DNA of 46,954 nt from a virus (IMGVR_UViG_3300035698_001949:1-46954), one strand, 5' to 3'. Counted from the stretch's first letter, positions 23,533-40,371 are shown. Numbers and translations are program-made. The notes: generated by a model from the letters alone, not told the origin.

Positions 23533-23621
23533 GAACATGCCTCGCATAGAATTTCGTCTTCAGAGTAATTTCCAAGGTAGTTATCTTCTGTCAGCATTTC
23601 TCCGCAGTTCTCACAACTCAT
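23529..23621 (-). CDS. 30-residue zinc-ribbon micro-protein upstream of the polymerase
   Basis: Reads MSCENCGEMLTEDN and continues to ILCEACS. It has two CxxC knuckles (residues 3-6 and 26-29), enough for one zinc ribbon. Its ATG overlaps the stop of the ClpP-like gene and its TGA overlaps the polymerase ATG, so it is coupled on both sides. Possible roles are a translational coupler or a small nucleic-acid or polymerase-binding zinc protein. Too short for most gene callers. Confidence 0.65.
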   Translation of the reverse strand: MSCENCGEMLTEDNYLGNYSEDEILCEACS

Positions 23622-24229
23622 TTGAAATGCCTCTTAATTCTCTTGTTTATATCTTTGTCATCATACGCTATATAAATGTCGTTATCATTCTTTAACGACT
23701 CTAACTCTTTCTTATCAAGGAAAGGGGAGCATACTCTATTTAGATGTCTGTGGAAGTAGTCATGGTAGTGAGTTACTGCCTTATGCATCTCTGTTCCTTT
23801 ACCCATCTCCACACTGCTATAGTTGTGGAACATTAGAAATGCACCGTTCTGTAGTCGCAAGCTGTCACCAGACAGCGCTAAGATCGCTCCCATACTATAA
23901 CACGGCGCGTCAATTACTACATCTACTCGGGCCTTACATTCTTTGATTGTATTGAACAGCTGGAATCCAGTGCTACACTGTCCTCCGTAGTTTGCTAGGT
24001 ACAAAGTCACCACATTTTCTTTTCCTACAGATCTGAATTGGTGCATAAGGTCAGAGTAAGCGAAGTTATTCTCTACGTTCTCTGATAGGTAAATGCTGTA
24101 GTGACTCACTGTTTTTGGCTTACAATAAATCTTAAACTTCTCGTCTAAGTCCGAGTCATCAGTCGCTGAATATTGATTTGTAGTTACGCTAACTCTTCTT
24201 TTATTTTCTTTGTCTACATTTATACCCAT
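23618..24229 (-). CDS. Cytoplasmic ClpP-like serine protease
   Basis: The 203-residue protein has the ClpP/crotonase core: YLANYGGQCSTG (oxyanion GG near 82-83), the nucleophile elbow CYSMGAILALSGD with Ser112, and LMFHNYSS with His135. The acidic third member is less clear; NDNDIYIAYDDKD near the end sits where ClpP has its Asp region. No signal peptide: the N-terminus is polar. It lies in the replication block rather than beside the capsid genes, so it is unlikely to be a prohead protease. Good GGAG site. Substrate unknown. Confidence 0.8.
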   Translation of the reverse strand: MGINVDKENKRRVSVTTNQYSATDDSDLDEKFKIYCKPKTVSHYSIYLSENVENNFAYSDLMHQFRSVGKENVVTLYLANYGGQCSTGFQLFNTIKECKARVDVVIDAPCYSMGAILALSGDSLRLQNGAFLMFHNYSSVEMGKGTEMHKAVTHYHDYFHRHLNRVCSPFLDKKELESLKNDNDIYIAYDDKDINKRIKRHFK

Positions 24230-27048: not shown

Positions 27049-27432
27049 CTACCCGCGCTTATCCTCATACGTAGCTGGATAAAACACTTCATCGGTTGGG
27101 TGGTTGTTTTCTTCCCATTGTCGAACCTGCTCTTTGTAAGCTTGCTCGTACGTATCTTTAAGCGGATTACTATTTACCATGGCTTCTCCTTCGGTTAGTT
27201 TACTGAATTTATCCCAATCTGCTTCTGCTGTGTTCATGTCTACTAATAGAGCGTCTAGCTTCTCAGCTATACTGCCTAATTCGTCAGCTGCTCTCTCAAA
27301 ATCGTCCTGTACTGATCTTCCAGGAAAGCTAGATAGAGGAGGATAGCCACCAAATAATAACTTGGTTGAGATATCATTTATCTCCTCTACTATATCCCCT
27401 AATTGTTCCTGTGCTGTCTGTTGTCTAGTCAT
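27049..27432 (-). CDS. Helical/coiled-coil protein, unknown
   Basis: The 127-residue acidic protein is mostly helical, with a heptad-like stretch (DDFERAADELGSIAEKLDAL) in the middle and a Glu/Gln-rich second half. There are no cysteines, membrane segment or signal peptide. Its start overlaps the stop of the exported ClpP-like gene upstream (4-nt overlap), so it is in the same operon. No family recognised. Confidence 0.65.
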   Translation of the reverse strand: MTRQQTAQEQLGDIVEEINDISTKLLFGGYPPLSSFPGRSVQDDFERAADELGSIAEKLDALLVDMNTAEADWDKFSKLTEGEAMVNSNPLKDTYEQAYKEQVRQWEENNHPTDEVFYPATYEDKRG

Positions 27433-28022
27433 ACCTGTACTCCTCGTGCTTTGCAGTATCCCTTACCACTCTCAAATATCCTTACTTTAATTCTAGTACA
27501 CAATTGTTTTCCTGTCAAGATAACATCTCCACCTTTTCGCATTTTTCTCACTTCTGCTTTGGTGAACCAGCGCATCATATTCCTCATCTGCTTCTCACTT
27601 TGACGTATTAGTACCTGCTTTCCTCCTCCTTTCTGGGGATAGTAGCCATAATGGAATAATATCCTAGATGTGTGGTTTACCTTAACCACGTCTCCTATCA
27701 TCACCATAACCGCAGCATAGCTTGCTACAAACTTTCTGGATTCAGTAGTCACTGTCGCTTTGGACCGCTGTATGGCTCTTATTAGAGGCTCAGAGACATA
27801 ATCTATGCCTCCTACGTTATTCCTTATAATAATATGTATCTTTTGTCCTTTGCCTGACCTATTCAGATCATTTAGAAGTCTCTGATATTGGTGCTTCATG
27901 AGATCTCCTTCCACAAAGTACACTCTCTCCTGCGGTGTGCTCTTGGTTACCCTCAAGGTAGCTAAAGAGCTCTCTGCTATCATAAAGATTGATAGTGCTG
28001 CTGCTGTAACTAGCTTAATCAT
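27429..28022 (-). CDS. Exported ClpP-like serine protease (second of pair)
   Basis: The 197-residue protein begins MIKLVTAAALSIFMIAESSLA, a good signal peptide with probable cleavage after about residue 21. The mature part has the ClpP fold pattern: IHIIIRNNVGGIDYV (oxyanion GG 71-72), the elbow VASYAAVMVMIGD with Ser101, ILFHYGYY with His124, and the GDVILTG segment near the C-terminus where ClpP has its DxxLTA element. The two cysteines near the end could form a disulfide. ClpP enzymes are normally cytosolic, so an exported form is unusual. The gene overlaps its paralogue at 28019 by 4 nt. Confidence 0.78.
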   Translation of the reverse strand: MIKLVTAAALSIFMIAESSLATLRVTKSTPQERVYFVEGDLMKHQYQRLLNDLNRSGKGQKIHIIIRNNVGGIDYVSEPLIRAIQRSKATVTTESRKFVASYAAVMVMIGDVVKVNHTSRILFHYGYYPQKGGGKQVLIRQSEKQMRNMMRWFTKAEVRKMRKGGDVILTGKQLCTRIKVRIFESGKGYCKARGVQV

Positions 28023-28633
28023 TCTGCTGGCCTCTCTCCAACAATAACACAGTACTCTTCCGTTTCTTCTATCTTTTTCCCTTTATGGCACATGTCTGCT
28101 CCGCTTATGGTAGCAAAATCTCCCATTAAGAACTCGCTCATGTTAATCTTCGTTAAATACTTAATCCATTTCAGGTTGATCATCAGATGACCATAGAAGT
28201 TCCTAACCTGGTTCCGCGCTTCGTTTATGTCTTTCGATCTGTATACTGTCAACAGTCCTACAGTCTTACTGTTTCTACTGCCTAAGTGGATACTAATCTC
28301 TGCATTCTTATATACTCTCAGCTTATCTCCTTCTAGTAGTACGATACCAGCAGCACTGATACAGGTTTCAACACACACTAAGGTTACTTCTCCTTTATGG
28401 CTACGAATACTGTTTACTAGCATATTCAGTGCTGTCAAGGTTCCTCCGTTGTTGTTCTGAATTACAATGTCAATCGGTCCTGTTGTGTTCTCTAGTTTTT
28501 CATACACTGGTGCAATCGTTGCCATCGACACTGAACCATTCAAGTACACCTTCACGGGCACTGTCTTTACTGTATATCCTTGGCTAAGAGCAGCTGAAGC
28601 TGCCATCACCATTCCTATTATATATTCTATCAT
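28019..28633 (-). CDS. Exported ClpP-like serine protease (first of pair)
   Basis: The 204-residue protein begins MIEYIIGMVMAASAALSQG, a short signal-like segment. The body reads like ClpP: PIDIVIQNNNGGTLTALNML (oxyanion GG 63-64), elbow ETCISAAGIVLLEGD with Ser93, EISIHLGSRNS with His116, and FATISGADMC near the end in the ClpP DxxMSAxEA position. Four cysteines (87, 91 and two C-terminal) fit an oxidising compartment. Together with 27429-28022 it could form a hetero-oligomeric periplasmic protease. No Clp ATPase with a signal peptide is encoded, so it may act alone or as a scaffold. Confidence 0.8.
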   Translation of the reverse strand: MIEYIIGMVMAASAALSQGYTVKTVPVKVYLNGSVSMATIAPVYEKLENTTGPIDIVIQNNNGGTLTALNMLVNSIRSHKGEVTLVCVETCISAAGIVLLEGDKLRVYKNAEISIHLGSRNSKTVGLLTVYRSKDINEARNQVRNFYGHLMINLKWIKYLTKINMSEFLMGDFATISGADMCHKGKKIEETEEYCVIVGERPAE

Positions 28634-28843: not shown

Positions 28844-29197
28844 TTAGTACCCTTGACGTGTTGCTGAGTCTTCCAGAGCGTCTAACATAGCATCTATCTG
28901 CTTCTGTAAGTCTTTCTGCAGTGCTCTAGCCTGCTTACGCACCTTAGGATCACTCCAATTCTTCTTGTAGTGGTTTATTCTGCGTTGTATTGCATTACCA
29001 CTATCAGTAGTGTAACGCTTAGGTGTGTACAGTCCATCCGTCGTACGTCCTACATTTGGTGTAGTCTTGTACGCTCCTTTGTCTGGAGTCAGTTCATAAC
29101 CACTAGGCTTATTCAGAATATCTGATGCCTTCTGGTTCGCTGATACTGCTCCAGATGCCAAAAATACGGCTGCTATAACCGCTACTGCATAGCTCAT
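28844..29197 (-). CDS. Exported basic helical protein
   Basis: The 117-residue protein has a signal peptide (SYAVAVIAAVFLASGAVSA, likely cut near residue 20). The mature part is basic, with a Tyr/Thr-rich middle (YELTPDKGAYKTTPNVGR) and a C-terminal charged helix (KVRKQARALQKDLQKQIDAM). It is probably periplasmic. It overlaps 29194 by ATGA. No family recognised; being basic and coiled, it could bind a protein partner or peptidoglycan. Confidence 0.68.
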   Translation of the reverse strand: MSYAVAVIAAVFLASGAVSANQKASDILNKPSGYELTPDKGAYKTTPNVGRTTDGLYTPKRYTTDSGNAIQRRINHYKKNWSDPKVRKQARALQKDLQKQIDAMLDALEDSATRQGY

Positions 29198-29388
29198 TTT
29201 TTACCTCTCTCAGACTTCTTAGTCTGCTTACTGTCATGGAATAAACCATCCTTCTTATCGTTTACCTCGTTCGCAACAATTACTACCTTGTATGCTGGTA
29301 ACTTAACCTGACCGGGGAACATCGTGCTCATTGCCATCACGTTCGCCGACGTTACCAACATTACGGCACCTACTAAATACTTAATCAT
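29194..29388 (-). CDS. Small exported protein
   Basis: The 64-residue protein has a clear signal peptide, MIKYLVGAVMLVTSANVMA, with cleavage expected after residue 19. The mature peptide of about 45 residues is polar and lysine-rich at the end (SKQTKKSERGKK). The ribosome site GAGGAGAG precedes the ATG. Function unknown. Confidence 0.65.
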   Translation of the reverse strand: MIKYLVGAVMLVTSANVMAMSTMFPGQVKLPAYKVVIVANEVNDKKDGLFHDSKQTKKSERGKK

Positions 29389-29741: not shown

Positions 29742-30049
29742 AGCCTTGTAAACACTCTCCGTATTAGATAGTTTACTACCAGTTTTATTGCTGATACTGC
29801 TAACGCAGCATTCACATTCATAGCAAATGATACCTCGGGGAAGAACAACACTAATACTACAATAGTGACCAGTAACCCCGTGATTAGATGTAATGTAACC
29901 TCTAGCGCTGTGTGGTGATGTCTCTGAGGGGGCTTTTTAGCCCCTTTACGGTACTTTCTCTTCTTAACAGTGTGCTTAAGCACCTCTGCCTCGGCAGGCT
30001 GACTGAGAGCGTTGTTGGGGTCTCCACAGCAATTGGGTGGTTTAGTCAT
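29738..30049 (-). CDS. Two-pass membrane protein (DUF7220-like)
   Basis: The 103-residue protein has a polar, basic N-terminus with NCC near residue 7 and KKRKYRKGAKKPPQRHHH. Two membrane segments follow, ALEVTLHLITGLLVTIVVLV and NVNAALAVSAIKLVVNYLI, ending RRVFTRL. The layout (E-x-x-x near the first helix, FP between helices, Y-x-x-RR-x-F at the end) resembles small phage membrane proteins of the DUF7220 type. First non-regulatory gene of the leftward early operon. Function unknown. Confidence 0.62.
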   Translation of the reverse strand: MTKPPNCCGDPNNALSQPAEAEVLKHTVKKRKYRKGAKKPPQRHHHTALEVTLHLITGLLVTIVVLVLFFPEVSFAMNVNAALAVSAIKLVVNYLIRRVFTRL

Positions 30050-30383
30050 ATATTATTAATGATGACAGCTTATTAGGCATTGTCACTTTCCATTCTAGTT
30101 TAAGCCCTAAGTACTGGGCTACGTCAATCAATAATGCTAGACCTATGCCAGCATCGCCTGTTATGTACTTCCCTACATTACCCAGCATTTTAGAAGATAG
30201 GTCCGGTCTATTGGCGTACTTTGCTACTAAAATGTCTTCTAGTACAGCCTTTAGGCTCTCATTGCGCAATCTCTGCGCATGACCATCCAAACACTCAATC
30301 AGTCTCTTACGATCCGATTTCGTGATGATCTTAATACCTTTACCACGTATGTGGAACTTACATATAAATACTTCATTACTCAT
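30042..30383 (-). CDS. Possible early regulator translated from a leaderless mRNA
   Basis: The product from the ATG at 30383 is 113 residues: MSNEVFICKFHIRGKGIKII and onward. An upstream ATG at 30419 lies in the -35 box of its own promoter and is rejected. The C-terminal third (MLGNVGKYITGDAGIGLALL, then IDVAQYLGLKLEW) resembles the last helices of Xre/Cro-type DNA-binding domains, weakly. The ATG begins about where transcription should start, as for lambda cI from PRM. Being first in the operon and next to palindromic sites, it may be a transcriptional regulator, but this is inference. Confidence 0.55.
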   Translation of the reverse strand: MSNEVFICKFHIRGKGIKIITKSDRKRLIECLDGHAQRLRNESLKAVLEDILVAKYANRPDLSSKMLGNVGKYITGDAGIGLALLIDVAQYLGLKLEWKVTMPNKLSSLIIYD

Positions 30384-30389
30384 AGTCCA

Positions 30390-30419
30390 ACTATAGCACA
30401 GATGGATAGGTGCTGTCAA
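30390..30419 (-). promoter_or_regulatory. Leftward early promoter
   Basis: Minus strand: TTGACA (30419-30414), an 18-bp spacer, and TATAGT (30395-30390), with TGC before the -10 (extended -10). Only six bases separate the -10 from the ATG at 30383, giving a leaderless transcript. It drives the whole leftward operon of more than 16 kb. Confidence 0.8.
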
Positions 30420-30559
30420 GCACTAAAGCTCTTACATCTCTCATTTTAGCAGTAGACCACTAGATTGCTATATATAATAACTATAGTACTAAGTACTAGA
30501 GCTACAGTAAGCTCTATGAAGCTCTGTTAAAGAGCTATGAGCTTATAGTACTTAAGTAC
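30420..30559. other. Palindrome-rich divergent control region / candidate origin
   Basis: No gene. It lies between the divergent early promoters and is A/T-rich. It holds AGTACT-A-AGTACT (30485-30497), AGAGCT/AGCTCT pairs (30498-30503 with 30510-30515; 30520-30525 with 30531-30536) and a perfect 14-bp palindrome AGTACTTAAGTACT (30547-30560) abutting the rightward -35. These are candidate operators and, with the A/T-rich DNA, a candidate replication origin. Confidence 0.55.
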
Positions 30560-30588
30560 TTGCTAAAGTGTAATTACTAGGCTATACT
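30560..30588 (+). promoter_or_regulatory. Rightward early promoter
   Basis: TTGCTA (30560-30565), a 17-bp spacer, and TATACT (30583-30588). The first base of the -35 is the last base of a 14-bp palindrome, a good place for repressor binding. It reads into the 24-residue membrane peptide gene at 30620. Confidence 0.7.
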
Positions 30589-30619
30589 GGAAGTAACAGA
30601 GATTAGGAGGTTAATTACT

Positions 30620-30694
30620 ATGTTATTTACTTTAGGTTTAGTTGTGTTTGTTGGAAGTATAGTATTTATACTGTGTATGGCTAGTTCTAACTAA
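30620..30694 (+). CDS. 24-residue membrane micro-protein
   Basis: Encodes MLFTLGLVVFVGSIVFILCM then ASSN: essentially one transmembrane helix. It has a very strong AGGAGG (30605-30610) nine bases before the ATG and its own promoter 32 bp upstream, which argues that it is real in spite of its size. First product of the rightward early transcript. Confidence 0.6.
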   Translation: MLFTLGLVVFVGSIVFILCMASSN

Positions 30695-30899
30695 AGTTAG
30701 TCGCTTCTGCCGATAGGTAGCTAAAAAGCACTTAGTCAGGGCCTTCTGTATTAATCTTAGTCCTAAGCCAACAAGGGGCCGTCATCTAGACGGTTAGAAT
30801 GCCTCCTAGAGGCACACAGAGCTTACAGGAGAAGAGATCAGAGGTAAGGTAGTAGGATAGGATAGGTTAGAGTAATAGAGAGGCATAGAGAGGCTTAAA
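30695..30899 (+). other. Untranslated stretch with two small hairpins
   Basis: 205 bases without a convincing gene. It contains CCGTC-ATCTA-GACGG (30779-30793) and TGCCTC-CTA-GAGGCA (30800-30814), then a purine-rich run ending in a tandem repeat before the next ATG. It could be a structured leader or small RNA. Confidence 0.4.
30875..30894 (+). repeat. Tandem 10-bp repeat containing ribosome-site sequence
   Basis: ATAGAGAGGC occurs twice in tandem (30875-30884 and 30885-30894), six bases upstream of the ATG at 30900. Each copy has GAGAGG, so the repeat may duplicate the Shine-Dalgarno. Confidence 0.7.
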
Positions 30900-31184
30900 A
30901 TGATTGGAAGAGTTAGAAGTAGATTTATAAGATGGAGGATAGGTGTAATTAGATTACAGCTGTTCTTGATAGAGAATGAGTTGTTATTACTGAACAATAG
31001 ATGTAAGATAGCCCCTGGAGGGTATAAGACGTTCGATTCGTCTCAGGATGCGGCTGCATCAGGAGTACTTAAGCATGAGAAGGTTAAGTATAAGAAGAAA
31101 CTAGTGTATTGGGAAGATCTTCTAGATTATTATCTAGCAGTACAGTCTTTGAAGAAGTATGAGAGAGAAGAGAGAGATAAATGA
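30900..31184 (+). CDS. Basic helical protein, unknown
   Basis: The 94-residue, strongly basic protein is helical at both ends (IRLQLFLIENELLLLNNRCK; KKLVYWEDLLDYYLAVQSLK) with a middle of KIAPGGYKTFDSSQDAAASG. It is probably nucleic-acid or protein-binding. In the rightward early block after a tandem SD repeat. No family recognised. Confidence 0.62.
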   Translation: MIGRVRSRFIRWRIGVIRLQLFLIENELLLLNNRCKIAPGGYKTFDSSQDAAASGVLKHEKVKYKKKLVYWEDLLDYYLAVQSLKKYEREERDK

Positions 31185-31187
31185 GCT

Positions 31188-31421
31188 ATGTATGAACTAA
31201 TAGAAGCGATAATCTTTTTGACCGGATGGGCTACTTTATGCGCGCTATCTTGCGCATTAATATATAACATTGGTACAAAGATAACTAATAAAGCGCAGAA
31301 GAAGGATAAGAGAACTAGGAAAGAGCTAATAGAGCTTGACCCAACTCCTCCTGTATGCTATAATAGAACTAAGGCTAAGGTATATTCCTTTAGTGAACAT
31401 AAACGTAGACTGAGAGGATAA
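31188..31421 (+). CDS. Small membrane protein with basic cytoplasmic tail
   Basis: The 77-residue protein has a hydrophobic N-terminal helix (residues 4-28, LIEAIIFLTGWATLCALSCA), then a lysine/arginine-rich tail ending KAKVYSFSEHKRRLRG. The last element resembles the end of 31601-31849 (KAQVYNLDDYRK), a short C-terminal motif shared by two otherwise unrelated neighbours. An internal promoter-like sequence lies within its codons. Confidence 0.6.
   Translation: MYELIEAIIFLTGWATLCALSCALIYNIGTKITNKAQKKDKRTRKELIELDPTPPVCYNRTKAKVYSFSEHKRRLRG
31336..31364 (+). promoter_or_regulatory. Internal promoter with extended -10
   Basis: TTGACC (31336-31341), a 17-bp spacer, and TGC-TATAAT (-10 at 31359-31364), entirely inside the coding sequence of 31188-31421. 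It would transcribe the small genes from 31428 on. Confidence 0.6.
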
Positions 31422-31427
31422 TTAGAG

Positions 31428-31547
31428 ATGTTTGTAGAGTATCCAGCAACTATGGTTGCAGTAGCCATCATATATGGGTCTATGTTAGCAGTATTAGGTC
31501 TGATTATGTTCTTAGAGTGGTTATTCCCTAAGAATGACTCAGATTAA
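31428..31547 (+). CDS. 39-residue single-pass membrane micro-protein
   Basis: Begins MFVEYPATMVAVAIIYGSML and ends FLEWLFPKNDSD. It has one transmembrane helix of about 23 residues with a short polar end. GAGAGG lies about ten bases before the ATG. A hairpin follows its stop codon directly. Function unknown. Confidence 0.58.
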   Translation: MFVEYPATMVAVAIIYGSMLAVLGLIMFLEWLFPKNDSD

Positions 31548-31562
31548 GGTACTAATAGTACC
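31548..31562 (+). other. Small perfect hairpin after a membrane micro-gene
   Basis: GGTACT-AAT-AGTACC begins immediately after the TAA at 31547. There is no T run, so it is not a classical terminator. Its AGTACT arm is the same half-site as in the 30.5-kb palindromes, so it may be an operator. Confidence 0.5.
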
Positions 31563-31600
31563 ATGATGTGATTAATTATAAACTATGAGAGGATAGAGAG

Positions 31601-31849
31601 ATGAGTATAGGTAATTGTAGATGTCCCAAGTGCTTGGAGTTCAATAGCGACGCAGACACGGCGTATGCTTGGTTGAGTATCAACCCAGATCACTTAGTGC
31701 CCGATATAGAAGTGTACATTAGAGCAATATGTACTCCATCTAGCCAAATGTCCTTAGATGGTGAGCTTTGGTGCGATACATCCCAAGATGGTGCGAATGA
31801 TACGAATATCAAAGCACAAGTATATAACTTAGACGATTATAGGAAGTAA
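31601..31849 (+). CDS. Small CRCPKC protein, unknown
   Basis: The 82-residue acidic protein starts MSIGNCRCPKCLEF, a cysteine cluster that may hold zinc, with two later cysteines (ICTPSSQ, LWCDTSQ). It ends KAQVYNLDDYRK. A purine-rich SD (GAGAGGATAGAGAG) precedes the ATG. No family recognised. Confidence 0.6.
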   Translation: MSIGNCRCPKCLEFNSDADTAYAWLSINPDHLVPDIEVYIRAICTPSSQMSLDGELWCDTSQDGANDTNIKAQVYNLDDYRK

Positions 31850-31850
31850 T

Positions 31851-32000
31851 ATGAATAAATATACAACAAAACGTATAAAGAGGTATTATAATGACCAACC
31901 AGCAGGTATTCTGCTCATGAAATGGGCGTATTATGACAGTAACAGGCAGTATCTGCATAGCACAACAGTAGAGGATAAGAGCAATGATAAGAAATCGTAA
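31851..32000 (+). CDS. 49-residue basic micro-protein
   Basis: Reads MNKYTTKRIKRYYNDQPAGI and onward to TTVEDKSNDKKS, Tyr- and Lys-rich. It starts one base after the preceding stop and overlaps the next small gene by 17 nt. It lacks a clear SD, so re-initiation after the upstream gene is likely. Function unknown. Confidence 0.45.
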   Translation: MNKYTTKRIKRYYNDQPAGILLMKWAYYDSNRQYLHSTTVEDKSNDKKS

Positions 32001-32163
32001 GATCATAGGAGATATATTGTATAAACTAGGAGTCCTTAATAGGTTTTATCTAAGACGTGATAATGCCTATATGTATCTATTGTGTGTACCTGGACAACCC
32101 GGCTTAAGGCTACGCCCTGTAGGTGTGTTCTATATGAAGTACATACACAAGTATGGACTATGA
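31984..32163 (+). CDS. 59-residue basic protein, unknown
   Basis: Reads MIRNRKIIGDILYKLGVLNR then FYLRRDNAYMYLLCVPGQPG, basic and Tyr/Leu-rich. It overlaps 31851-32000 in another frame, and its TGA overlaps the ATG of the ligase-domain-like gene (ATGA). This coupling supports the reading frame. No family recognised. Confidence 0.48.
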   Translation: MIRNRKIIGDILYKLGVLNRFYLRRDNAYMYLLCVPGQPGLRLRPVGVFYMKYIHKYGL

Positions 32164-32408
32164 CCAAGGACCATATGCGTACATTAGGAGTACGTCTATT
32201 GTTCTATAGGTATGCCTACTACGTACATGCATGCCCATTGATTAGTGATAGTGAGTACGATAAGATAGACAGAGAGCTATGTACATTGAACAATGAACAC
32301 AGAGAGTGGATATATAACCCATGTGTTACACTGAGTGTGGGCTCAGACCTAGAGTCCGACTATCCTGGCTTCATACGTGGTATGTATCTACATCATCTTA
32401 CATTGTGA
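32160..32408 (+). CDS. Stand-alone NAD-dependent DNA ligase Ia-like domain
   Basis: From the coupled ATG at 32160 the product is 82 residues. The core LFYRYAYYVHACPLISDSEY followed by DKIDRELCTLNNEH matches the start of bacterial LigA (YYv-d-P-iSDaEYDal-reL--lE--hP), i.e. domain Ia, which binds the NMN half of NAD+. The adenylation, OB, zinc and BRCT domains are absent. A further in-frame upstream extension (to 32082) lacks the coupling and is not needed. It may bind host LigA or NAD, which is inference; the match is by pattern only. Confidence 0.6.
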   Translation: MTKDHMRTLGVRLLFYRYAYYVHACPLISDSEYDKIDRELCTLNNEHREWIYNPCVTLSVGSDLESDYPGFIRGMYLHHLTL

Positions 32409-32744
32409 TGCAACTAAGATAATCCCTACAGCTGGGTCCCCTATTACCTTTATTCCCCCATTGTATACACCACATCTCCCCTTTTATACCTGTTGACACA
32501 TGTAGGATATGTCCATTATTACAACTCGATAAATAAGCCCCCCCCTCATGCTACGCCGCTGCATAAATTGCCCAGTTCTGGAGGGACCTCTATTGTCCCA
32601 GGGCCTGGGGCCCCTAAAGTGTTACTCCACTGTAACTTGTACCCGATAGGACCCGTCCCCTCTTTTACGGGACCCCTGTATATAGGAAGGGCCCCCTATA
32701 TATAATATAGAGCACTCATTTCAGCAGAACTGTCAGGTAATTGC
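32409..32744 (+). other. Gene-free, C-rich and palindrome-rich region
   Basis: About 336 bases without a convincing gene. It has an unbroken run of eight C (32538-32545) and a series of inverted repeats: GGGAC/GTCCC (32583-32599), CCCAGG-G-CCTGGG (32597-32609), GGGGCCCC (32607-32614), GTTAC/GTAAC (32621-32636), CCCGT/ACGGG (32652-32671) and TATATAGG/CCTATATA (32679-32702). Its composition differs from the A/T-rich genes around it. It may be a replication origin, a packaging-recognition region or a structured RNA. Confidence 0.5.
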
Positions 32745-32773
32745 TTGACATTTCAGCAGCAGGGTGCTATACT
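32745..32773 (+). promoter_or_regulatory. Promoter of the micro-protein / DsbD-like pair
   Basis: TTGACA (32745-32750), a 17-bp spacer, then TGC-TATACT with the -10 at 32768-32773. Same extended -10 form as the promoters at 30390 and 33512. Confidence 0.82.
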
Positions 32774-32798
32774 TAAAGGTAAGATAGGAGAGATAGAG

Positions 32799-32882
32799 AT
32801 GAAGAGTGAAGACATAGTAACGTTGTTCTTAGTAGGGGCATGTATTGCAGCTATATTCCTGATGCTAGGGTCGATGCCTTAA
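32799..32882 (+). CDS. 27-residue membrane micro-protein before the DsbD-like gene
   Basis: Reads MKSEDIVTLFLVGACIAAIF then LMLGSMP: a single transmembrane helix with one cysteine inside it. GGAG lies eight bases before the ATG and a consensus promoter 26 bp upstream. It ends two bases before the start of the DsbD-like gene. It may be an accessory subunit or translational leader of that transporter. Confidence 0.6.
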   Translation: MKSEDIVTLFLVGACIAAIFLMLGSMP

Positions 32883-32884
32883 TC

Positions 32885-33499
32885 ATGGATGAGATGATAT
32901 GGACGCTGCTAGGCAGCTTTGGAGCAGGAATGCTCCTGAGCTTAACGCCATGCGTATTGCCTATGGTACCCATTTTAGCAGGGATCGTAGCCCAATCTAA
33001 GGGGATAGGGCCTATATTAGCGTATGTGGCGACCCAAATGGTCGTTTACGCCCTAATGGGCTTAGGCATCGCCTACGTGGGCGTAGAACTAACGGTTTAT
33101 TTGCAGTCCTGGTATATGATATGGATAATGAAGGGATTATTGGTATTCATGGGGCTCTGGATGTTAGGGGTGGTCAATCCTGTGATACCCACCCTACAGT
33201 ATTCCCCCAAAGGGATGAATACATACATTTCAGCAGTGGTTATGGCGATTATGAGCATTTTAGTATTATCCCCCTGTATTACACCTGCATTAATAGGAAT
33301 TATTATATGGATATCCACGGCTAAGCACCTGATAACAGGCACTTTGGCCTTAATGTTGCTAAATCTAGGTATGAATATCCCTCTATTAGTATTTTTCACC
33401 GTAGGGAAGCGGTTCTTGCCAAAGAACGGCCCTTGGATGGTAAAAATTAAAGCATTATTGGGTACTTTACTGCTAATTATGGCGTTTATTGCGGTATAG
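32885..33499 (+). CDS. DsbD/CcdA-like transmembrane thiol-electron transporter
   Basis: From the ATG at 32885 the product is 204 residues with about six membrane helices. The two repeats each carry the key motif: SLTPCVLPMVPILAGIV with Cys23 and VLSPCITPALIGIII with Cys131, exactly the TPC/SPC pair of the DsbD beta domain that moves electrons from cytoplasmic thioredoxin to the periplasm. LGMNIPLLVFF, then KRFLPKNGPWMVKIK, also matches the DsbD end. These are the only two cysteines. The periplasmic alpha and gamma domains of DsbD are missing; the exported thioredoxin-like protein at 35077 could take their place. An earlier in-frame ATG at 32840 overlaps the micro-gene and is rejected. Confidence 0.88.
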   Translation: MDEMIWTLLGSFGAGMLLSLTPCVLPMVPILAGIVAQSKGIGPILAYVATQMVVYALMGLGIAYVGVELTVYLQSWYMIWIMKGLLVFMGLWMLGVVNPVIPTLQYSPKGMNTYISAVVMAIMSILVLSPCITPALIGIIIWISTAKHLITGTLALMLLNLGMNIPLLVFFTVGKRFLPKNGPWMVKIKALLGTLLLIMAFIAV

Positions 33500-33511
33500 G
33501 GACGAAAGTAC

Positions 33512-33540
33512 TTGACAAACGATGAAAAGTGTGCTATACT
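33512..33540 (+). promoter_or_regulatory. Promoter before the lysis and morphogenesis genes
   Basis: TTGACA (33512-33517), a 17-bp spacer, and TGC-TATACT (-10 at 33535-33540). Nearly identical in form to the promoter at 32745. It precedes the holin and probably the late block. Confidence 0.84.
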
Positions 33541-33570
33541 TATAATAATGAGTAGGGGAGGACACAGAAT

Positions 33571-33999
33571 ATGGGCATAGCCACAATCATAGCTTCAATA
33601 GTATCCGGAATCGGTTCAGCCGTCTCTGGTTTTTTTGGCTTTAAGAATAAACAAGGTGATGTAGTAGCTACGGCTATTGAGACTATTGGCGGAATGGCCA
33701 AATCGGACTCAACAGCAGCCATGGCAGCAGCTTTAGCTATCGCGTCTGAAACTAGCAACGGTTCATGGATGGCAGCCAACTGGCGCCCTATGTTCGCTAT
33801 TGCTTGTGGGGTGATGATAGTAGGAAGATGGTTCGGGTATGTACCTGAAGGCATCAGCCCTGAAGAGATAGATCACGTATACACACTGATGGAGATCATG
33901 ATTGGTGGTTATGTTGGCGGTAGAAGCTTAGAGAAGATCATAAGCAGCTTCAATATCGGAAAAGTACTACAAACTCTTATTAGCAAGAAGATACTATGA
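33571..33999 (+). CDS. Holin (3-TM phage holin family-like)
   Basis: The 142-residue protein has an N-terminal hydrophobic segment (IIASIVSGIGSAVSGFFGF), the typical SWMAANWRPMFAIACGVMIV (aRPa-like) segment near residue 65 and a third hydrophobic stretch (IMIGGYVGGRSLEKI). This matches holins of the GTA_holin_3TM type. The amidase gene follows one gene later. It forms the inner-membrane lesion that lets the endolysin through. GGGGAGG precedes the ATG. Confidence 0.75.
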   Translation: MGIATIIASIVSGIGSAVSGFFGFKNKQGDVVATAIETIGGMAKSDSTAAMAAALAIASETSNGSWMAANWRPMFAIACGVMIVGRWFGYVPEGISPEEIDHVYTLMEIMIGGYVGGRSLEKIISSFNIGKVLQTLISKKIL

Positions 34000-34289
34000 T
34001 GGATATTGATATCTCCGTATTAGAGGAGAAGCTGAGAGAGTGGACAGATGCTAAGTTCAACGTAGAACAGACTAAAGAGAACTCCGAAGGTGTTAAGACG
34101 TTTATGATAGCGTCAATTAACCTGAAAGAGATGGAACAGACCTACTACCAACAGATGATGTACAACTCCCCAATAGACAGGAAGGAAATGACGTACATAC
34201 AGAGAACTCCCCCACAGTTTGATATAGACAAAGAAAAGAAGCTATTTACTTTAACTTGGAGAGGTGTTTGGCGTGAAAATAAGAAATAA
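33996..34289 (+). CDS. Lysis-cassette protein of unknown function
   Basis: The 97-residue soluble protein reads MDIDISVLEEKLREWTDAKF, then KTFMIASINLKEMEQTYYQQ and onward to FTLTWRGVWRENKK: a helix followed by strands. It overlaps the holin stop (ATGATGG) and the endolysin start. There is no signal or membrane segment, so it is not a spanin. It may regulate holin or endolysin; not recognised. Confidence 0.6.
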   Translation: MMDIDISVLEEKLREWTDAKFNVEQTKENSEGVKTFMIASINLKEMEQTYYQQMMYNSPIDRKEMTYIQRTPPQFDIDKEKKLFTLTWRGVWRENKK

Positions 34290-34779
34290 ACACGGAATAT
34301 TGCCATCAGCTAGTATGAAGTTACCTAGACGTAGGGTCATCCTACACCATACGGTAACCCCGACGGTTAAGAGCGCTGAGAATGCGTTAAAGCAGAGAAG
34401 ACTGTCTTATCACTACATGATTGACAAAGATGGTACAATATATGAATATGTAAGCCCTAAGAGACGTGCATTCCACGCTAAGGGCTACAATTATGGTAGT
34501 ATCGGTATCGCCTTTATATGTGGCGGTAAATATGGTCCTACGAACGACGCTCAGATTAATTCTTGCGTCAAACTACTTAGAGTGCTTAAGATGGACTTCC
34601 ATTTCCTTACTAAGGTAACAGGACACAAGCATGCCACTAAGAGCGGGAAGATAGATCCCACATTTCCGGGAGAACCGGCACAAGACGTAAATTGGAGGAT
34701 TGATATGCAATATATGCAAATTATAGCAGAGCAGTCCGGATTAGAAGCAGAATTATTAAGGGGGCCTTATGCTCGATAA
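34273..34779 (+). CDS. Endolysin, N-acetylmuramoyl-L-alanine amidase (Amidase_2)
   Basis: From the GTG at 34273 (GGAGAGG nine bases upstream) the product is 168 residues. RRVILHHTVTP holds the first zinc histidine (25/26); RLSYHYMIDKDGTIYEYVSP and FHAKGYNYGSIGIAF are core strands. VTGHKHATKSGKIDPTFPG holds His118 and Asp128 in the positions of the remaining ligands. It cuts the amide bond between MurNAc and L-Ala. There is no signal peptide, so it depends on the holin. Two cysteines (83 and 98) are present, which matters given the neighbouring redox genes. Confidence 0.88.
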   Translation: MKIRNKHGILPSASMKLPRRRVILHHTVTPTVKSAENALKQRRLSYHYMIDKDGTIYEYVSPKRRAFHAKGYNYGSIGIAFICGGKYGPTNDAQINSCVKLLRVLKMDFHFLTKVTGHKHATKSGKIDPTFPGEPAQDVNWRIDMQYMQIIAEQSGLEAELLRGPYAR

Positions 34780-34873
34780 AATGAAAGAGTTCGTGATGAA
34801 CATGTCAATGAAAGAGAAAGTATTCTATTGCGTTGTCTGCGTAGTAGTTGTAATGTGCGTGGTAATGTGCTAA
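34769..34873 (+). CDS. 34-residue cysteine-rich tail-anchored micro-protein
   Basis: Reads MLDKMKEFVMNMSMKEKVFY then CVVCVVVVMCVVMC. The last 14 residues are a hydrophobic segment with four cysteines (two pairs: CxxC and CxxxC). Its ATG overlaps the endolysin end and has AGGGGG six bases upstream. The segment is short for a full membrane span. In the lysis cassette next to redox genes it could be a redox-sensitive or membrane-modifying peptide; this is speculative. Confidence 0.55.
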   Translation: MLDKMKEFVMNMSMKEKVFYCVVCVVVVMCVVMC

Positions 34874-35076
34874 ACTTACATTAGATCGCTACCTTAGGAT
34901 CTGTGTGATAGCAGCTGTCGAAGCAACGCCATCGGTGCAGAATCAAGGAAAACATGGATTTGGAGTTTACCATGCAAAAAATAACTCCACTGAACGCATG
35001 GGCAGTGTGCATCGAATGGCTATCGCGATACAAAATAAAGGATAGCTCCGGTTTATGTCTCTTGAGGAGGGGAAAG

Positions 35077-35445
35077 ATGATCAAGTCATTAGTAGTGGCC
35101 TTAGCATTCCTATTTGGAACGTGGGCACAAGCAGCGCCAGACAAGCCCTTAGTGGTTATGTACTGGGCTACCTATTGTAGTTACTGCAAACAAGAGATTC
35201 CCATACTGAAGAAGTTAGTAAGAGAAGGAAAAATAAGAGCTATAGGGGTAGTATTAGATCCCCAGAGTATGGCCAAAGTAAGATTGATTCTGGAGCGCTA
35301 TAAGCCTAACTTCAATCTTAATGGAAAATATAAAGCTCCTGGAAAGATATACGGAGTTCCTACTATCTTCATCATAAAGAATGGAAAGGTAGTTAAAGTA
35401 TTTAACAGGTCGACAGCACCTGGAGAAATTGAGAAGTATTTATAA
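35077..35445 (+). CDS. Exported TlpA/DsbE-like thioredoxin
   Basis: From the ATG at 35077 (GAGGAGGGG upstream) the product is 122 residues. Residues 1-20 (MIKSLVVALAFLFGTWAQAA) are a signal peptide. The mature part is a thioredoxin fold: LVVMYWATYCSYCKQEIPIL with active site C34-S-Y-C37, IRAIGVVLDP, and the cis-proline YGVPT (P95) followed by FIIKNGKVV. This matches TlpA/DsbE-type periplasmic oxidoreductases. The frame is open upstream to 34954 but without a reason for an extension. Bases 34874-35076 hold no convincing gene, only an AGATC/GATCT hairpin. Probable partner of the DsbD-like protein at 32885. Confidence 0.88.
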   Translation: MIKSLVVALAFLFGTWAQAAPDKPLVVMYWATYCSYCKQEIPILKKLVREGKIRAIGVVLDPQSMAKVRLILERYKPNFNLNGKYKAPGKIYGVPTIFIIKNGKVVKVFNRSTAPGEIEKYL

Positions 35446-35702
35446 GAACCCCTCCCTACTACGAGCGGAAGCTACGACTAGTATAGGGCCATCAGTGGTT
35501 GGACGCGGTGCCACTTTAAAGATCGGCGAGATCCTCGATAACCCCCAACACCAGGAAAGAAGTAAGGCTGAAATCCCTCGGGACACATTGTAGGCATCAA
35601 TACTTCTTATATAAGGAAATAAAAGAGTTCTGGGCTATCACCGGCTCCTAGAGCAAAGAGCCCACCCCTTCTGGGGGATAACAATAATAATCGGATAAGT
35701 AA
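35446..35702 (+). other. Gene-free structured region before the terminase genes
   Basis: 257 bases without a gene. Hairpins: AGTGG/CCACT (35494-35515), CGAG-ATC-CTCG (35527-35537), GGCTC/GAGCC (35643-35662) and CCCC-TTCT-GGGG (35665-35676). No T runs follow them. It could be a structured mRNA leader, a small RNA or the packaging recognition region, which in many phages lies in or near terS. Confidence 0.42.
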
Positions 35703-35981
35703 ATGGAATGGCAATACCTAGCCCTCGTCATGAATCTCTTAGTACTCCCTCTTATGGGAATGCTGAGCTTCATGCTCCGACGAATGTCAATTAAACTGGA
35801 TCAAACCATGTCAAAACAAGAAATAAGACAAACCGTGGATGATAAGTTAGAACCTGTAAGAGTCGAATACCAGCACGTACACGAGCGCTTGGTTATGATT
35901 GAGAAAGAACTAGCACTAATATTACACGAGTTACGAAATGAAAGAAAAGAAGAAGAAGCAAGGCGTCATATTAGAAGGTAA
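35703..35981 (+). CDS. Membrane-anchored coiled-coil protein (spanin-like layout)
   Basis: The 92-residue protein has an N-terminal membrane helix (LALVMNLLVLPLMGMLSFML) and a long charged helix (residues 35-92, ending KEEEARRHIRR). The layout fits an inner-membrane spanin or a related holin-associated protein, but no partner lipoprotein (outer-membrane spanin) could be found nearby. It overlaps terS by 44 nt. Confidence 0.58.
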   Translation: MEWQYLALVMNLLVLPLMGMLSFMLRRMSIKLDQTMSKQEIRQTVDDKLEPVRVEYQHVHERLVMIEKELALILHELRNERKEEEARRHIRR

Positions 35982-36432
35982 AGTAATACCAGCTAAGAGA
36001 GGCCGCAAGACTCTTTATAAAGAACATTACAAAGATGACTTGGTTGACTTGATGCGTCAAGGCAAATCTGCTACGCAAGTGGCAGCAGCATGGGGAATAT
36101 CCAGACAGACATTGCATACGTGGTTAAAGGACAAAGAAGATCTTAAAGAAGCTTATCAGACTGCTAAGACAGCAGGTGAAGCGTTCTGGGAAGATGTAGG
36201 CAATGCAGCCGTATTCGGACAAATAAAAGGATTCAACACCAAAGTATTCGAAATGAATATGCGTAATAGATTTGGTTGGGGTGTAGATAACCAAACTAAT
36301 CAAACGATCAATATAGAGAACATGCAAATTAATAATATGAGCGAAAAAGAGCTAGATGCTCAAATTGCTTTAAAGATCAAAGAATTGGGGCTAGAGGATG
36401 GCAACGAACAAGACGAAGATAGCGAAGCTTAA
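35938..36432 (+). CDS. Terminase small subunit
   Basis: The 164-residue protein has a lysine-rich start, then a helix-turn-helix (KSATQVAAAWGISRQTLHTW) for DNA recognition. An oligomerisation region follows (KEAYQTAKTAGEAFWEDVGN) and an acidic C-terminus (ELDAQIALKIKELGLEDGNE). This is typical of TerS proteins. It overlaps terL by 35 nt, which supports the pair. It recognises the packaging site on the concatemer. Confidence 0.85.
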   Translation: MKEKKKKQGVILEGKVIPAKRGRKTLYKEHYKDDLVDLMRQGKSATQVAAAWGISRQTLHTWLKDKEDLKEAYQTAKTAGEAFWEDVGNAAVFGQIKGFNTKVFEMNMRNRFGWGVDNQTNQTINIENMQINNMSEKELDAQIALKIKELGLEDGNEQDEDSEA

Positions 36433-37885
36433 AGAGCTACATTCTCTCCTAGAGGAGAAGAAGCAGAGACGTAAGTATAACGCTATTGATCAGGTATTTA
36501 TGAAAGAAGGTCCTCTTAGAAGAGAACTATACCCCAAACAGATAGAATTCTTCAAAGCTGGGAAAACCATTAAACAACGAGCGATGATTGCGGCCAACAG
36601 GACAGGTAAGTCATTTGCTGGCGGTTGTGAGATGACATACCATTTAACTGGGCTATACCCAGATTGGTGGGAAGGAAGAAAGTTTGATCACCCTATCGAC
36701 GCATGGACAGCAGGCGTAAACAACGAAGCTACTAAAGATGTAATTCAGAAGATACTCCTAGGAGACTTCGCAGATATGGGCACTGGCCTAATACCTAAAG
36801 ACTGTATTGTAGGAAAGTGTGTTAGTCGGCCAGGTGTACCAGAAGCCGTACTAACAGTAAGAGTAAAGCATTTCACGAACGGAGTAGAGGACGGCGTTAG
36901 TGTTCTAGGTTTTAAATCTTACGATCAGAAGAGGCCTTCATTTCAGGGAACGTCGAAAGACGTTATATGGCTGGATGAGGAACCTAGAGATCAGGGAATT
37001 TATTCAGAGTGTATTACAAGGACTATGACAACAGGTGGTTCTATATACTGTACATTCACACCGTTATTCGGTTTATCAGATGTTGTAGAAAGTTTTATGC
37101 CGGGAGGCAAAATTCCGAAGAGAGGGATCTCAGGAAAAGTGGGTGATAAGTATATCGTGCAAATAGATTGGAATGAAGTTCCACATCTACGAAACGATGA
37201 AAAAGAAGCCCTCCTCGCTACTTATACCCCCTACGAGCGTGATGCTCGATCCAAAGGGATCCCTCAACTCGGTTCTGGTGCTATCTTCCCTATATTAGAG
37301 GATGAGATATTAGTAGAACCTTTTGAAATACCCCACTACTGGCCTAGAGTATATGGAATGGATGTGGGTTGGAATAAAACAGCTTGTGTGTGGGCTGCCA
37401 TTAATCCAGAGACCGATCAGATATACCTGTACTCAGAACACTACAGAGGGAAGTCAGAACCCCCTATACATGCAATGTCAATCAAAGCCAGAGGTAACTG
37501 GATACCGGGAGTAATTGATCCAAAGTCAAATGCTTCTAACCAAGTAGATGGTAGCAGATTGTATCAGATGTATGTGGAACTTGGATTAGATTTAATACCT
37601 GCAGACAATGCAGTAGAGACAGGACTACTATTAATGTGGCAAAAGCTGTCAACTGGACAACTAAAAGTTTTTAGCACATTACAAAACTGGCTATCGGAGT
37701 TCAGAGTTTATCGAAGAGATGAAAAAGGCCACATCGTCAAAAAGAATGATCACTTGATGGATGCAACTAGATATTTAGTAATGTCTGGATTACCCTGCGC
37801 TGAGATAAAACCCGATGAAGATGATCGAGATGACGAATACCTAAATGGCCCCAGCGAAGGCGGATCCTCAGTATGTGGGTATTAG
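36398..37885 (+). CDS. terL: Terminase large subunit
   Basis: The 495-residue protein has an ATPase domain with Walker A AANRTGKSF at 65-73 and Walker B VIWLDEE with D193/E194. The C-terminal RNase H-like nuclease has acidic residues D322 (YGMDVGWNKT), D374 (GVIDPKSNAS) and D452/D455 (DHLMDATRY). It drives DNA into the prohead and cuts the concatemer. Complete in length. The P22/Mu-like capsid set agrees with headful packaging, but the packaging type cannot be proven here. Confidence 0.95.
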   Translation: MATNKTKIAKLKELHSLLEEKKQRRKYNAIDQVFMKEGPLRRELYPKQIEFFKAGKTIKQRAMIAANRTGKSFAGGCEMTYHLTGLYPDWWEGRKFDHPIDAWTAGVNNEATKDVIQKILLGDFADMGTGLIPKDCIVGKCVSRPGVPEAVLTVRVKHFTNGVEDGVSVLGFKSYDQKRPSFQGTSKDVIWLDEEPRDQGIYSECITRTMTTGGSIYCTFTPLFGLSDVVESFMPGGKIPKRGISGKVGDKYIVQIDWNEVPHLRNDEKEALLATYTPYERDARSKGIPQLGSGAIFPILEDEILVEPFEIPHYWPRVYGMDVGWNKTACVWAAINPETDQIYLYSEHYRGKSEPPIHAMSIKARGNWIPGVIDPKSNASNQVDGSRLYQMYVELGLDLIPADNAVETGLLLMWQKLSTGQLKVFSTLQNWLSEFRVYRRDEKGHIVKKNDHLMDATRYLVMSGLPCAEIKPDEDDRDDEYLNGPSEGGSSVCGY

Positions 37886-37888
37886 CAG

Positions 37889-38317
37889 ATGTTACGTATA
37901 TGCAGAGACTGTAAGTTGATTAGACACCATACATATATGGTTAAGAATAAAATATCCAAGCACGGGATAGACACTTTATGTCTAGTCTGTAATAGGAAAA
38001 GAGTCAAAGACTGGAGAAAAGCTAATCCTGTGAAGAAACGTAAATGGGATAGAGAAGTTGGATACTGCCGAGATAAAACTAGAAACCATAGACAAGCTAA
38101 AAGAAGAGCTGCTATAAAGAAGAGAACAGTTCACTGGGCGAACGAAAATGATATAAAGAACATGTACAAAGATTGTCCGGAAGGATATCATGTAGATCAT
38201 ATAATCCCTTTGAGAGGCAAACTAGTGTCTGGTTTACATGTAGAGAATAATTTACAATACTTACCGGCCAAGGAGAATTTTTCCAAAGGTAACAGATTTA
38301 GGGTATACGATATATGA
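37889..38317 (+). CDS. HNH endonuclease between terminase and portal
   Basis: The 142-residue protein has two CxxC knuckles (ICRDCK, LCLVCNRKR), a basic linker and a C-terminal HNH core: YHVDHIIPLRGKLVSGLHVE followed by NNLQYLPAKENFSKG. In many phages an HNH protein next to TerL aids packaging cleavage; it can also be a homing enzyme. It overlaps the portal start (ATGA). Confidence 0.87.
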   Translation: MLRICRDCKLIRHHTYMVKNKISKHGIDTLCLVCNRKRVKDWRKANPVKKRKWDREVGYCRDKTRNHRQAKRRAAIKKRTVHWANENDIKNMYKDCPEGYHVDHIIPLRGKLVSGLHVENNLQYLPAKENFSKGNRFRVYDI

Positions 38318-40371
38318 AAGAATTACACAAAAAGTTAAAGATAGAAGATATCATTGCTTTACCTAATGTGGTAGAGGTAATGGACGAGAAAGACGTAGGT
38401 ACTATAGCTAGAGAAGTAATCGAAGGTTTTCAGAGTGATAAGAACAGTCGTATGGACTGGGAGCGAGAGACAGAAGACGCACTAGAACTGGCAGGAATGG
38501 CTAGACAGAGAAAAAACACACCATGGCCCAACGCATCTAATGTAAAATACCCGATCATCACTACGGCTGCTATTCAGTTCGCCGCTAGAACTTACCCAGA
38601 GATTATACGAAACGGTCGAGTAGTTGAGGTAGCCGCAATTGGCTCCGATCCAAACGGCGAGAAAGAACAGAGAGCAAAGCGAATATCCCAACATATGTCG
38701 TACCAGCTACTAATTGAACATAATGAATTTGAAGACGCTACAGATCGATTACTGCAAATGCTACCAATCGTAGGAACAGTATTCAAAAAGACATACTTCG
38801 ATTCTGTACAACAACGAAATATAAGTGAACTTTGTCTACATGACGAGATCTTCGTACACAATGATATAAAAAATATAGAGAGTGCTAGAAGAGTAACGCA
38901 CAAGTTAAACCTACATAAGAATGATATTGTAGAACGAATTAGAGCAGGTATCTATACAGACGTTCCAGAAGCATCCCTAAGAAGCGGGCTGGAAGAAGTC
39001 GTTAATGACTCAGAGCAGCTTGAGGTATTAGAACAGCACAGATACTTAGACTTAGATGGCGATGGATACGAAGAACCCTATATTGTGACAGTACTGAAAA
39101 GCAGTGCTAAAGTACTAAGAATTGTTGCTCGGTACAATGAAGACGATATAGAGCTAAACGACAAAGAAGAAGTAATGAGGATTAAACCTATACAATACTT
39201 CACAGACTACCACTTTATCCCGTCACCAGACGGAACATTCTATAGCCTTGGCTTCGGTAGACTATTACTGGCCCTGAACGAATCTGTTAATACAATTCTA
39301 AACCAATTGATTGATGCAGGGACACTAGCCAACATGCAGAGCGGTTTCTTAGGCAGGGGGCTGCGTATTAAGAGCGGTCAGCTAAGAATGAGACCAGGCC
39401 AGTGGCATAAGCTAGATTCAGCAGGCGTAGACGACATTCGAAAACATATTGTACCTATGGACTATAAAGAGCCTAGCGCTGTTCTATTTCAGCTATTAGG
39501 TACCCTGGTACAAGCAAGTAAGGAACTATCATCATCTACAGACGCCCTAACAGGCACTGAGCAAGCACAGAACGTCCCTGCTACGACTATCTTGGCTCTC
39601 ATAGAGCAGGGTAGTAAGGTGTTCTCTTCTATCCAAAGAAGGCTCTATAGGTCCCTTAAGAAAGAATTTGAAAAGATGTACGAATTAAACAGAGTATTCT
39701 TAGACCCTCAAGAGTATGCTAATGTTCTGGATGATCCTGCAGCACAGTTTGCGGATGATTATGAAGATCTTAGTATGGACATTAAACCAGTAGCAGATCC
39801 CCATATGTCTTCAGATGCTCAGAGGTTAGCTAGGTCACAAGCACAATTAGCCCTTATAGGACAACCTGGAGTCAATGCACACGAAATTATAAAAAGATAC
39901 TTAGAAGATTTAAATACCCCGAATATACAGCAGATCTTACCACCACCTGATCCTAATGCTCCACCTCCAATTGAGGTTATTGAGACTATGGGTAAACTGG
40001 ATGCCGAAGGTAAGAAACTACAATTAAAAGCTATGGCCGGTGAAGTCAGAGAAAGAGATACAGCTACAAGGGAATATAAGGCAGAGTTTGAAGCTGAAAG
40101 AATGAGAGCTGAGTCTATTAAGATGCTAGCCGAAGCTAAGAGAGCCTTAGCAGAAGCACAAGCAACTAATATGAATACAGCGTTAGCACCGCTGATTGCG
40201 AAAGTTGATGCTTTAGCACAAAATGCACAGTTCGTACAAGCAGAGGGCCCTAGCCCACAAATACCAGAGGAGGTAGTAAATGAAATCGGAAGTGTACCGG
40301 GATTGGAAGAATCACCCAGTGACGGATCAGTTGTTCAAGATGCTGGTGGAGAAACGCCAGAACTTGGTTGA
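38314..40371 (+). CDS. Portal protein (P22-like)
   Basis: The 685-residue protein has MDWERETEDALELAGMARQR, then TPWPNASNVKYPIITTAAIQ, a usual portal start. QMLPIVGTVFKKTYFDS follows in the middle, with VRERDTATREYKAEFEAERM plus a Gln/Ala-rich coiled-coil C-terminus forming the barrel-like end. Length is near P22 gp1 (725). The dodecamer forms the DNA gate. The last 92 nt overlap the gene at 40280. Confidence 0.92.
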   Translation: MKELHKKLKIEDIIALPNVVEVMDEKDVGTIAREVIEGFQSDKNSRMDWERETEDALELAGMARQRKNTPWPNASNVKYPIITTAAIQFAARTYPEIIRNGRVVEVAAIGSDPNGEKEQRAKRISQHMSYQLLIEHNEFEDATDRLLQMLPIVGTVFKKTYFDSVQQRNISELCLHDEIFVHNDIKNIESARRVTHKLNLHKNDIVERIRAGIYTDVPEASLRSGLEEVVNDSEQLEVLEQHRYLDLDGDGYEEPYIVTVLKSSAKVLRIVARYNEDDIELNDKEEVMRIKPIQYFTDYHFIPSPDGTFYSLGFGRLLLALNESVNTILNQLIDAGTLANMQSGFLGRGLRIKSGQLRMRPGQWHKLDSAGVDDIRKHIVPMDYKEPSAVLFQLLGTLVQASKELSSSTDALTGTEQAQNVPATTILALIEQGSKVFSSIQRRLYRSLKKEFEKMYELNRVFLDPQEYANVLDDPAAQFADDYEDLSMDIKPVADPHMSSDAQRLARSQAQLALIGQPGVNAHEIIKRYLEDLNTPNIQQILPPPDPNAPPPIEVIETMGKLDAEGKKLQLKAMAGEVRERDTATREYKAEFEAERMRAESIKMLAEAKRALAEAQATNMNTALAPLIAKVDALAQNAQFVQAEGPSPQIPEEVVNEIGSVPGLEESPSDGSVVQDAGGETPELG

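Follow-up and report, generated by a model that had tools for sequence, protein, structure and literature searches.

The closest described counterparts of the phage locus considered here are the bacterial thiol relays that pair CcdA with ResA, CcsX or StoA in cytochrome c and spore maturation. In these systems, a membrane-only core with one cysteine each in TM1 and TM4 works with a separate exported CxxC thioredoxin. CcmG and ResA are known partners of CcdA or DsbD, and thioredoxins of the CcmG/ResA/StoA type carry an N-terminal beta-hairpin ahead of the core. CcdA, which comprises the membrane part only, maintains separate thioredoxins of the CcmG type in their reduced state in bacteria (PMC4460558). 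A glutamate at +6 from the first active-site cysteine, combined with no acidic residue at -6, marks the reductant-provision thioredoxins CcmG, ResA and StoA, unlike cytosolic thioredoxin and the gamma domain of DsbD (PMC3961690).

Cytosolic thioredoxin of the host is known to serve phages, and disulfide regulation is known for one phage lysozyme; for P1, no membrane electron transporter is known. The nearest precedent in kind is the BdbA/BdbB pair of prophage SP-beta, phage-borne thiol-disulfide oxidoreductases of the envelope encoded in the sublancin operon, of which BdbB forms the sublancin disulfides and BdbA is dispensable for sublancin (PMC6391423). Thiol chemistry is also tied to phage lysis in the disulfide-regulated SAR endolysin Lyz of P1 (PMC3556154).

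The window analysed here spans an entire virus record of IMG/VR (46,954 bases), and it encodes a DsbD membrane core together with an exported thioredoxin. This is a known cellular kind of system in a new, viral, domain-stripped form. Unlike the CcdA relays, it is viral, its two genes are not adjacent, and it comes without cytochrome or spore genes; its core is of the DsbD type in sequence, and its thioredoxin has no N-terminal extension. Unlike SP-beta BdbA/BdbB, it is expected to act reductively, and the phage showed no bacteriocin operon. None of the sources searched describes a virus with its own route for electrons through the inner membrane, and no report of a phage-encoded DsbD or periplasmic thioredoxin emerged from the literature searched; the original prediction, which knew of no phage system of this kind, agrees with these literature and database searches. 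If the relay works, phages would be acting directly on periplasmic redox state, and a minimal DsbD core with a detached thioredoxin would be a compact experiment of nature on the domains that DsbD requires.

The membrane core and the exported thioredoxin

The gene at 32885-33499 (+) encodes a CcdA-like DsbD membrane core of 204 residues with exactly two cysteines, C23 in a TPC motif (TPCVLPM) and C131 in an SPC motif (SPCITP). The protein matches Pfam DsbD_TM (PF02683) over positions 2-213 of 219 (7.1e-40, 137 bits against a cut-off of 27). Among NCBIfam models, it matches DsbD (3.6e-35) at positions 167-379 of 574, the membrane part only, rather than any CcdA model. Structurally, the AlphaFold2 model (pLDDT 84.8, pTM 0.78) contains six membrane segments, with predicted helices 1 and 4 interrupted at the two cysteine motifs, and the top-ranking PDB structure is that of CcdA (5vkv; probability 1.00, TM-score 0.66/0.61, Foldseek E 0.018). 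The six-helix, DsbD-like protein of the original prediction, with its only cysteines in TPC and SPC, is thus borne out by both the family match and the CcdA fold.

Nearly all positions conserved in cellular homologs are preserved: 24 of the 25 columns with at least 95% conservation in 37 cellular DsbD cores are kept in the phage core, and P22, C23, P26 and C131 are invariant in the 38 aligned sequences. The motifs TPCVLPM, SPC and LPK-G-WM are shared with DsbD of the E. coli type, and identity to the nearest cellular DsbD cores is 33-39%. All 80 of the nearest cellular relatives found lie within longer, multi-domain DsbD proteins (open frames of 439-854 aa). Unlike DsbD, the phage protein begins at TM1, without the N-terminal periplasmic alpha domain, and stops after TM6, without TM7-8 and the C-terminal gamma domain, a thioredoxin domain. 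Lysine and arginine counts of 1, 1 and 5 in the predicted cytosolic loops, against 0, 0, 1 and 0 outside, fit an N-out/C-out topology. Sequence and model together suggest an intact-looking DsbD/CcdA core that has been trimmed to the CcdA architecture and is predicted to transport electrons.

Immediately upstream, a short frame (32799-32882, +) encodes a 27-residue single-helix membrane peptide, MKSEDIVTLFLVGACIAAIFLMLGSMP, which is preceded by a Shine-Dalgarno-like AGGAG and stops 2 bases short of the start codon of DsbD. The peptide is unmatched in the relatives.

The gene at 35077-35445 (+) encodes a thioredoxin of 122 residues, with C34 and C37 in a CSYC motif and a cis-proline at P95 (GVP). 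The product matches Pfam Thioredoxin (1e-8), its model shows a thioredoxin fold (pLDDT 75.7 overall, ∼90 across the CxxC half), and its N-terminus, MIKSLVVALAFLFGTWAQA, resembles a Sec signal peptide as judged by eye. A signal-peptide thioredoxin with CSYC and cis-Pro is therefore present where it had been proposed, and each of the two proteins, modeled alone, takes the expected fold, CcdA-like for the core and thioredoxin for the exported partner. In alignment, the phage thioredoxin is 19-31% identical to cellular TlpA/ResA/CcmG-type proteins. It carries E40 at +6 and a non-acidic residue, M28, at -6 from the first active-site cysteine, an active-site signature like that of ResA, CcmG and StoA. 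However, the GVxGxPET motif of CcmG is absent (IYGVPTIF versus GVYGVPETF in CcmG-like cellular sequences), and so is the N-terminal extension of TlpA/ResA/CcmG, the mature protein starting at the thioredoxin core; for these two reasons the protein is not filed as CcmG or ResA proper. It also has YC instead of WC.

A candidate reductive relay

The best explanation of these two accessory genes, and one that we hold to be reasonably probable from sequences and models, is a two-protein reductive relay from cytosol to periplasm. By analogy with the family, host cytosolic thioredoxin would reduce C23-C131 of the phage core in the inner membrane. The core would then hand electrons to C34-C37 of the exported ResA/StoA-like thioredoxin, which would substitute for the missing gamma and alpha domains. 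In the third and weakest step, the reduced thioredoxin may open disulfides of envelope proteins during infection, acting against host DsbA.

Besides the family match, the CcdA fold, the retained conserved residues and the loop charges, further considerations argue for this relay. A core that lacks alpha, gamma and TM7-8, and whose nearest cellular relatives are multi-domain, would need a separate periplasmic acceptor, like CcdA in bacteria (PMC4460558), and an exported thioredoxin of the right class sits 1.6 kb from the DsbD gene. In addition, viruses seldom carry either kind of gene, so their joint presence within 2.6 kb is unlikely to be due to chance. Possible clients are at hand in exported proteins of the phage that have an even number of cysteines. 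Of the electron path originally envisaged, both protein identities stand, as do an intact-looking core and a reductant-type thioredoxin as its possible partner; the partnership itself is what we infer. Against the relay stand its occurrence in a single genome, the separation and unlike codon usage of the two genes, the missing N-terminal extension and YC motif of the thioredoxin, and the fact that no client was identified.

The thioredoxin's clients would be proteins of the host envelope or cell wall, or exported phage proteins such as two ClpP-like ones, rather than the endolysin. The first of these possible clients (28019-28633, -) has four cysteines and matches Pfam CLP_protease (4e-6) and PHROG 1827 (5.6e-9), its export signal being judged by eye; the second (27429-28022, -) has two cysteines and matches PHROG 1827 (6.6e-15), with a Pfam value of 0.012 that lies below the cut-off. 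As clients, the ClpP-like proteins would be as plausible as host envelope proteins. Loss of DsbA in Acinetobacter raises phage sensitivity via capsule regulation (PMC10249906), which shows that thiol chemistry in the envelope can affect phages, in that case by another route. A more far-reaching proposal, that the virus-encoded pathway shifts the host periplasm to reducing during infection and controls the exported ClpP-like pair or disulfide-dependent envelope proteins, thereby readying the envelope for lysis, appears improbable.

The exported ClpP-like genes form an overlapping tandem at 27429-28633 (-), and one of their products has a cysteine two residues before the presumed catalytic serine. 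Further ClpP-like proteins are encoded at 23618-24229 (-) in this phage and at 5284-5814, 8585-9229 and 19616-20254 in the IMG/VR relative G003, amounting to three per phage; one of the G003 proteins starts with a hydrophobic stretch and carries YCYSMC where its active site is presumed to lie. A single-protein scan with a ClpP-like sequence gave no match. Two small proteins with signal-peptide-like N-termini (28844-29388, -) have no database match.

The pair might instead provide metabolic support, feeding host cytochrome c maturation, DsbC/DsbG-type isomerases, or the repair of periplasmic peroxide or methionine-sulfoxide damage, so that the infected cell keeps respiring. CcdA/DsbD and CcmG/ResA serve exactly such pathways in bacteria (PMC4460558), and the phage carries other host-type accessory genes (PrkA, DUF444 and SpoVR). 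However, the thioredoxin lacks the GVxGxPET of CcmG, and no cytochrome or peroxidase gene appears among the phage annotations made; we consider such a role fairly unlikely.

The two genes look like separate accessory insertions. In codon usage, the DsbD gene scores lowest of 45 genes (z = -3.34, with high GC3), whereas the thioredoxin gene is typical (z = +0.57), and this difference suggests that the two were probably not acquired together; the argument is a modest one, since the coat gene also scores -2.88. Genes at 30.9-33.5 kb have no counterpart in the relatives, which fits an accessory-gene spot. Put forward with corresponding modesty, the simplest history would be the later capture of a cellular, probably proteobacterial, DsbD core beside an older thioredoxin. 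An assembly chimera is unlikely, since even the closest cellular cores reach just 33-39% identity and belong to multi-domain proteins, and since a 12-base element recurs in the promoters of DsbD and the holin.

Differing codon usage and non-adjacency, together with absence from relatives and a fragment devoid of alpha and gamma, would also suit two unrelated accessory genes, namely a host DsbD fragment that drains or blocks host DsbD and an independent exported thioredoxin, with no pathway between them. This is quite unlikely, given that the core keeps nearly all conserved residues, is trimmed to an architecture that is functional in bacteria as CcdA, and shares 2.6 kb with a second gene of a rare kind.

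The lysis cassette between the redox genes

Between the two genes of the proposed relay lie a holin, an unassigned protein, an amidase with two cysteines and a 34-residue peptide with four cysteines, all as originally described. The holin (33571-33999, +) is of the GTA_holin_3TM type (Pfam 1.2e-5, PHROG 3427 2.7e-12) and has a homolog in relative L004. It is followed by a 97-residue protein without cysteine or assigned identity (33996-34289, +), a soluble Amidase_2 endolysin (34273-34779, +; Pfam 1.3e-24) and the membrane peptide, which appears tail-anchored (34769-34873, +).

Consensus matches alone place a sigma-70-type promoter, TTGACA-17-TATACT with an extended TG, at 32745-32773 (+), before the 27-residue peptide and DsbD. 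A second TTGACA-17-TATACT match at 33512-33540 (+), before the holin, has the same extended -10, and the 12-base element GTGCTATACTTA is common to both. Further extended -10 sites of similar kind occur at 30419 (-) and 31336 (+), so that the promoters are members of a larger group that is not specific to lysis. Within 30390-33540, four strong promoters with an extended -10 (TGCTATAnT) cluster around the point where the two transcription directions diverge.

The bracketing of the cassette by the redox genes, the extended -10 common to the DsbD and holin promoters, and the cysteines of the amidase and the peptide in this phage are the points in favor of a relay that controls lysis, either by setting when lysis occurs or through activation or protection of the endolysin or the small peptide. 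The cysteines themselves, however, are not retained: the amidase homolog of relative L297 (43-44% identical) has other residues at both positions, and the counterparts of the 34-residue peptide in relatives L002 and L297 have none. Non-conserved cysteines have likewise been used as an argument against disulfide control of the phiCbK endolysin (PMC3556154). Unlike P1 Lyz, the amidase has no SAR segment, and it has neither a signal segment nor a catalytic or conserved regulatory cysteine. No cysteine excess is found in the phage's shared proteins (98 versus 98 in aligned positions).

The relatives tell against a lysis role as well. In the nearest phages (L002 and G003), the holin, endolysin and small membrane peptide lie directly before TerS or a TerS neighbor and are accompanied by neither redox gene. 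More broadly, DsbD_TM and thioredoxin genes are absent from all 40 TerL relatives and from all 3 amidase relatives. With no co-occurrence in relatives, the link to lysis is one of position, and the suggested part in lysis timing or endolysin activation is not supported. Control of lysis by the relay is thus distinctly unlikely, and redox activation of the amidase was rejected as the main reading on account of the non-conserved cysteines.

Distribution among viruses and genome context

The pair is recorded from a single metagenomic genome, and no other virus searched carries it. The 79 thioredoxin-bearing viral records examined contain no DsbD_TM, and among the 79 thioredoxin loci retrieved from viruses a signal-like N-terminus occurs in only ∼8, nearly all of the loci appearing cytosolic. 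Two alignment-based scans of IMG/VR returned no second DsbD core, within the reach of the short exact peptide patterns on which they rest and which can miss divergent members. In BFVD, no similar fold was found (best probability 0.13), and no credible viral DsbD emerged from INPHARED, BFVD or the IMG/VR pattern scans.

Among the phage records with DsbD-like matches, the regions read for Pseudomonas phage Y11, Acinetobacter phage MD-2021a and two fecal clones lie in bacterial gene neighborhoods, and, where read, their DsbD/CcdA genes are complete and of the cellular type. Salmonella records with such matches were judged from their labels, being named Salmonella or annotated dsbD, and all of these matches were treated as bacterial DNA instead of phage genes. 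The entries OQ572412.1, CAKLQH020000008.1, MT835550.1 and MT836548.1 of the phage collection carry bacterial DNA, including DsbD or CcdA genes with bacterial neighbors. PHROG 33510 matches the phage core and also 11 of 14 cellular control genomes, which marks it as a general CcdA/DsbD profile; a few catalogued phage or prophage members may exist within it.

The two ends of the record are identical over 127 bases. The end overlap of G003 is likewise exactly 127 bases, and on account of this equal length the identity is probably the assembler k-mer overlap of a circular assembly, not a true terminal repeat. The TerL/portal/coat module is kin to that of EBPR podovirus 1 (TerL 51%), and the replication set is T7-like, with a DNA polymerase, a 5'-3' exonuclease, endonuclease I, a DnaB-type helicase and a Toprim protein. 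A role for the thioredoxin as a T7-type polymerase processivity factor is ruled out by its signal peptide. No integrase was found among the scanned proteins of this phage, PADLOC gave no match, and Rfam gave none over 30000-38500. L002, L003, L005 and L297, the closest relatives by TerL and amidase, all come from IMG/VR sample 3300035698, which suggests the same origin for the window. A tRNA-Ser gene (TGA anticodon; 30962-31051, +) overlaps a spurious ORF.

The replication region also contains a complete PrkA kinase/DUF444/SpoVR trio (16168-20757, -), with Pfam values of 1.5e-155, 7.9e-129 and 6.7e-140, respectively. In bacteria, these three proteins form the yeaG-yeaH-ycgB stress set, and the trio is kept in relative G003 at 40-56% identity.
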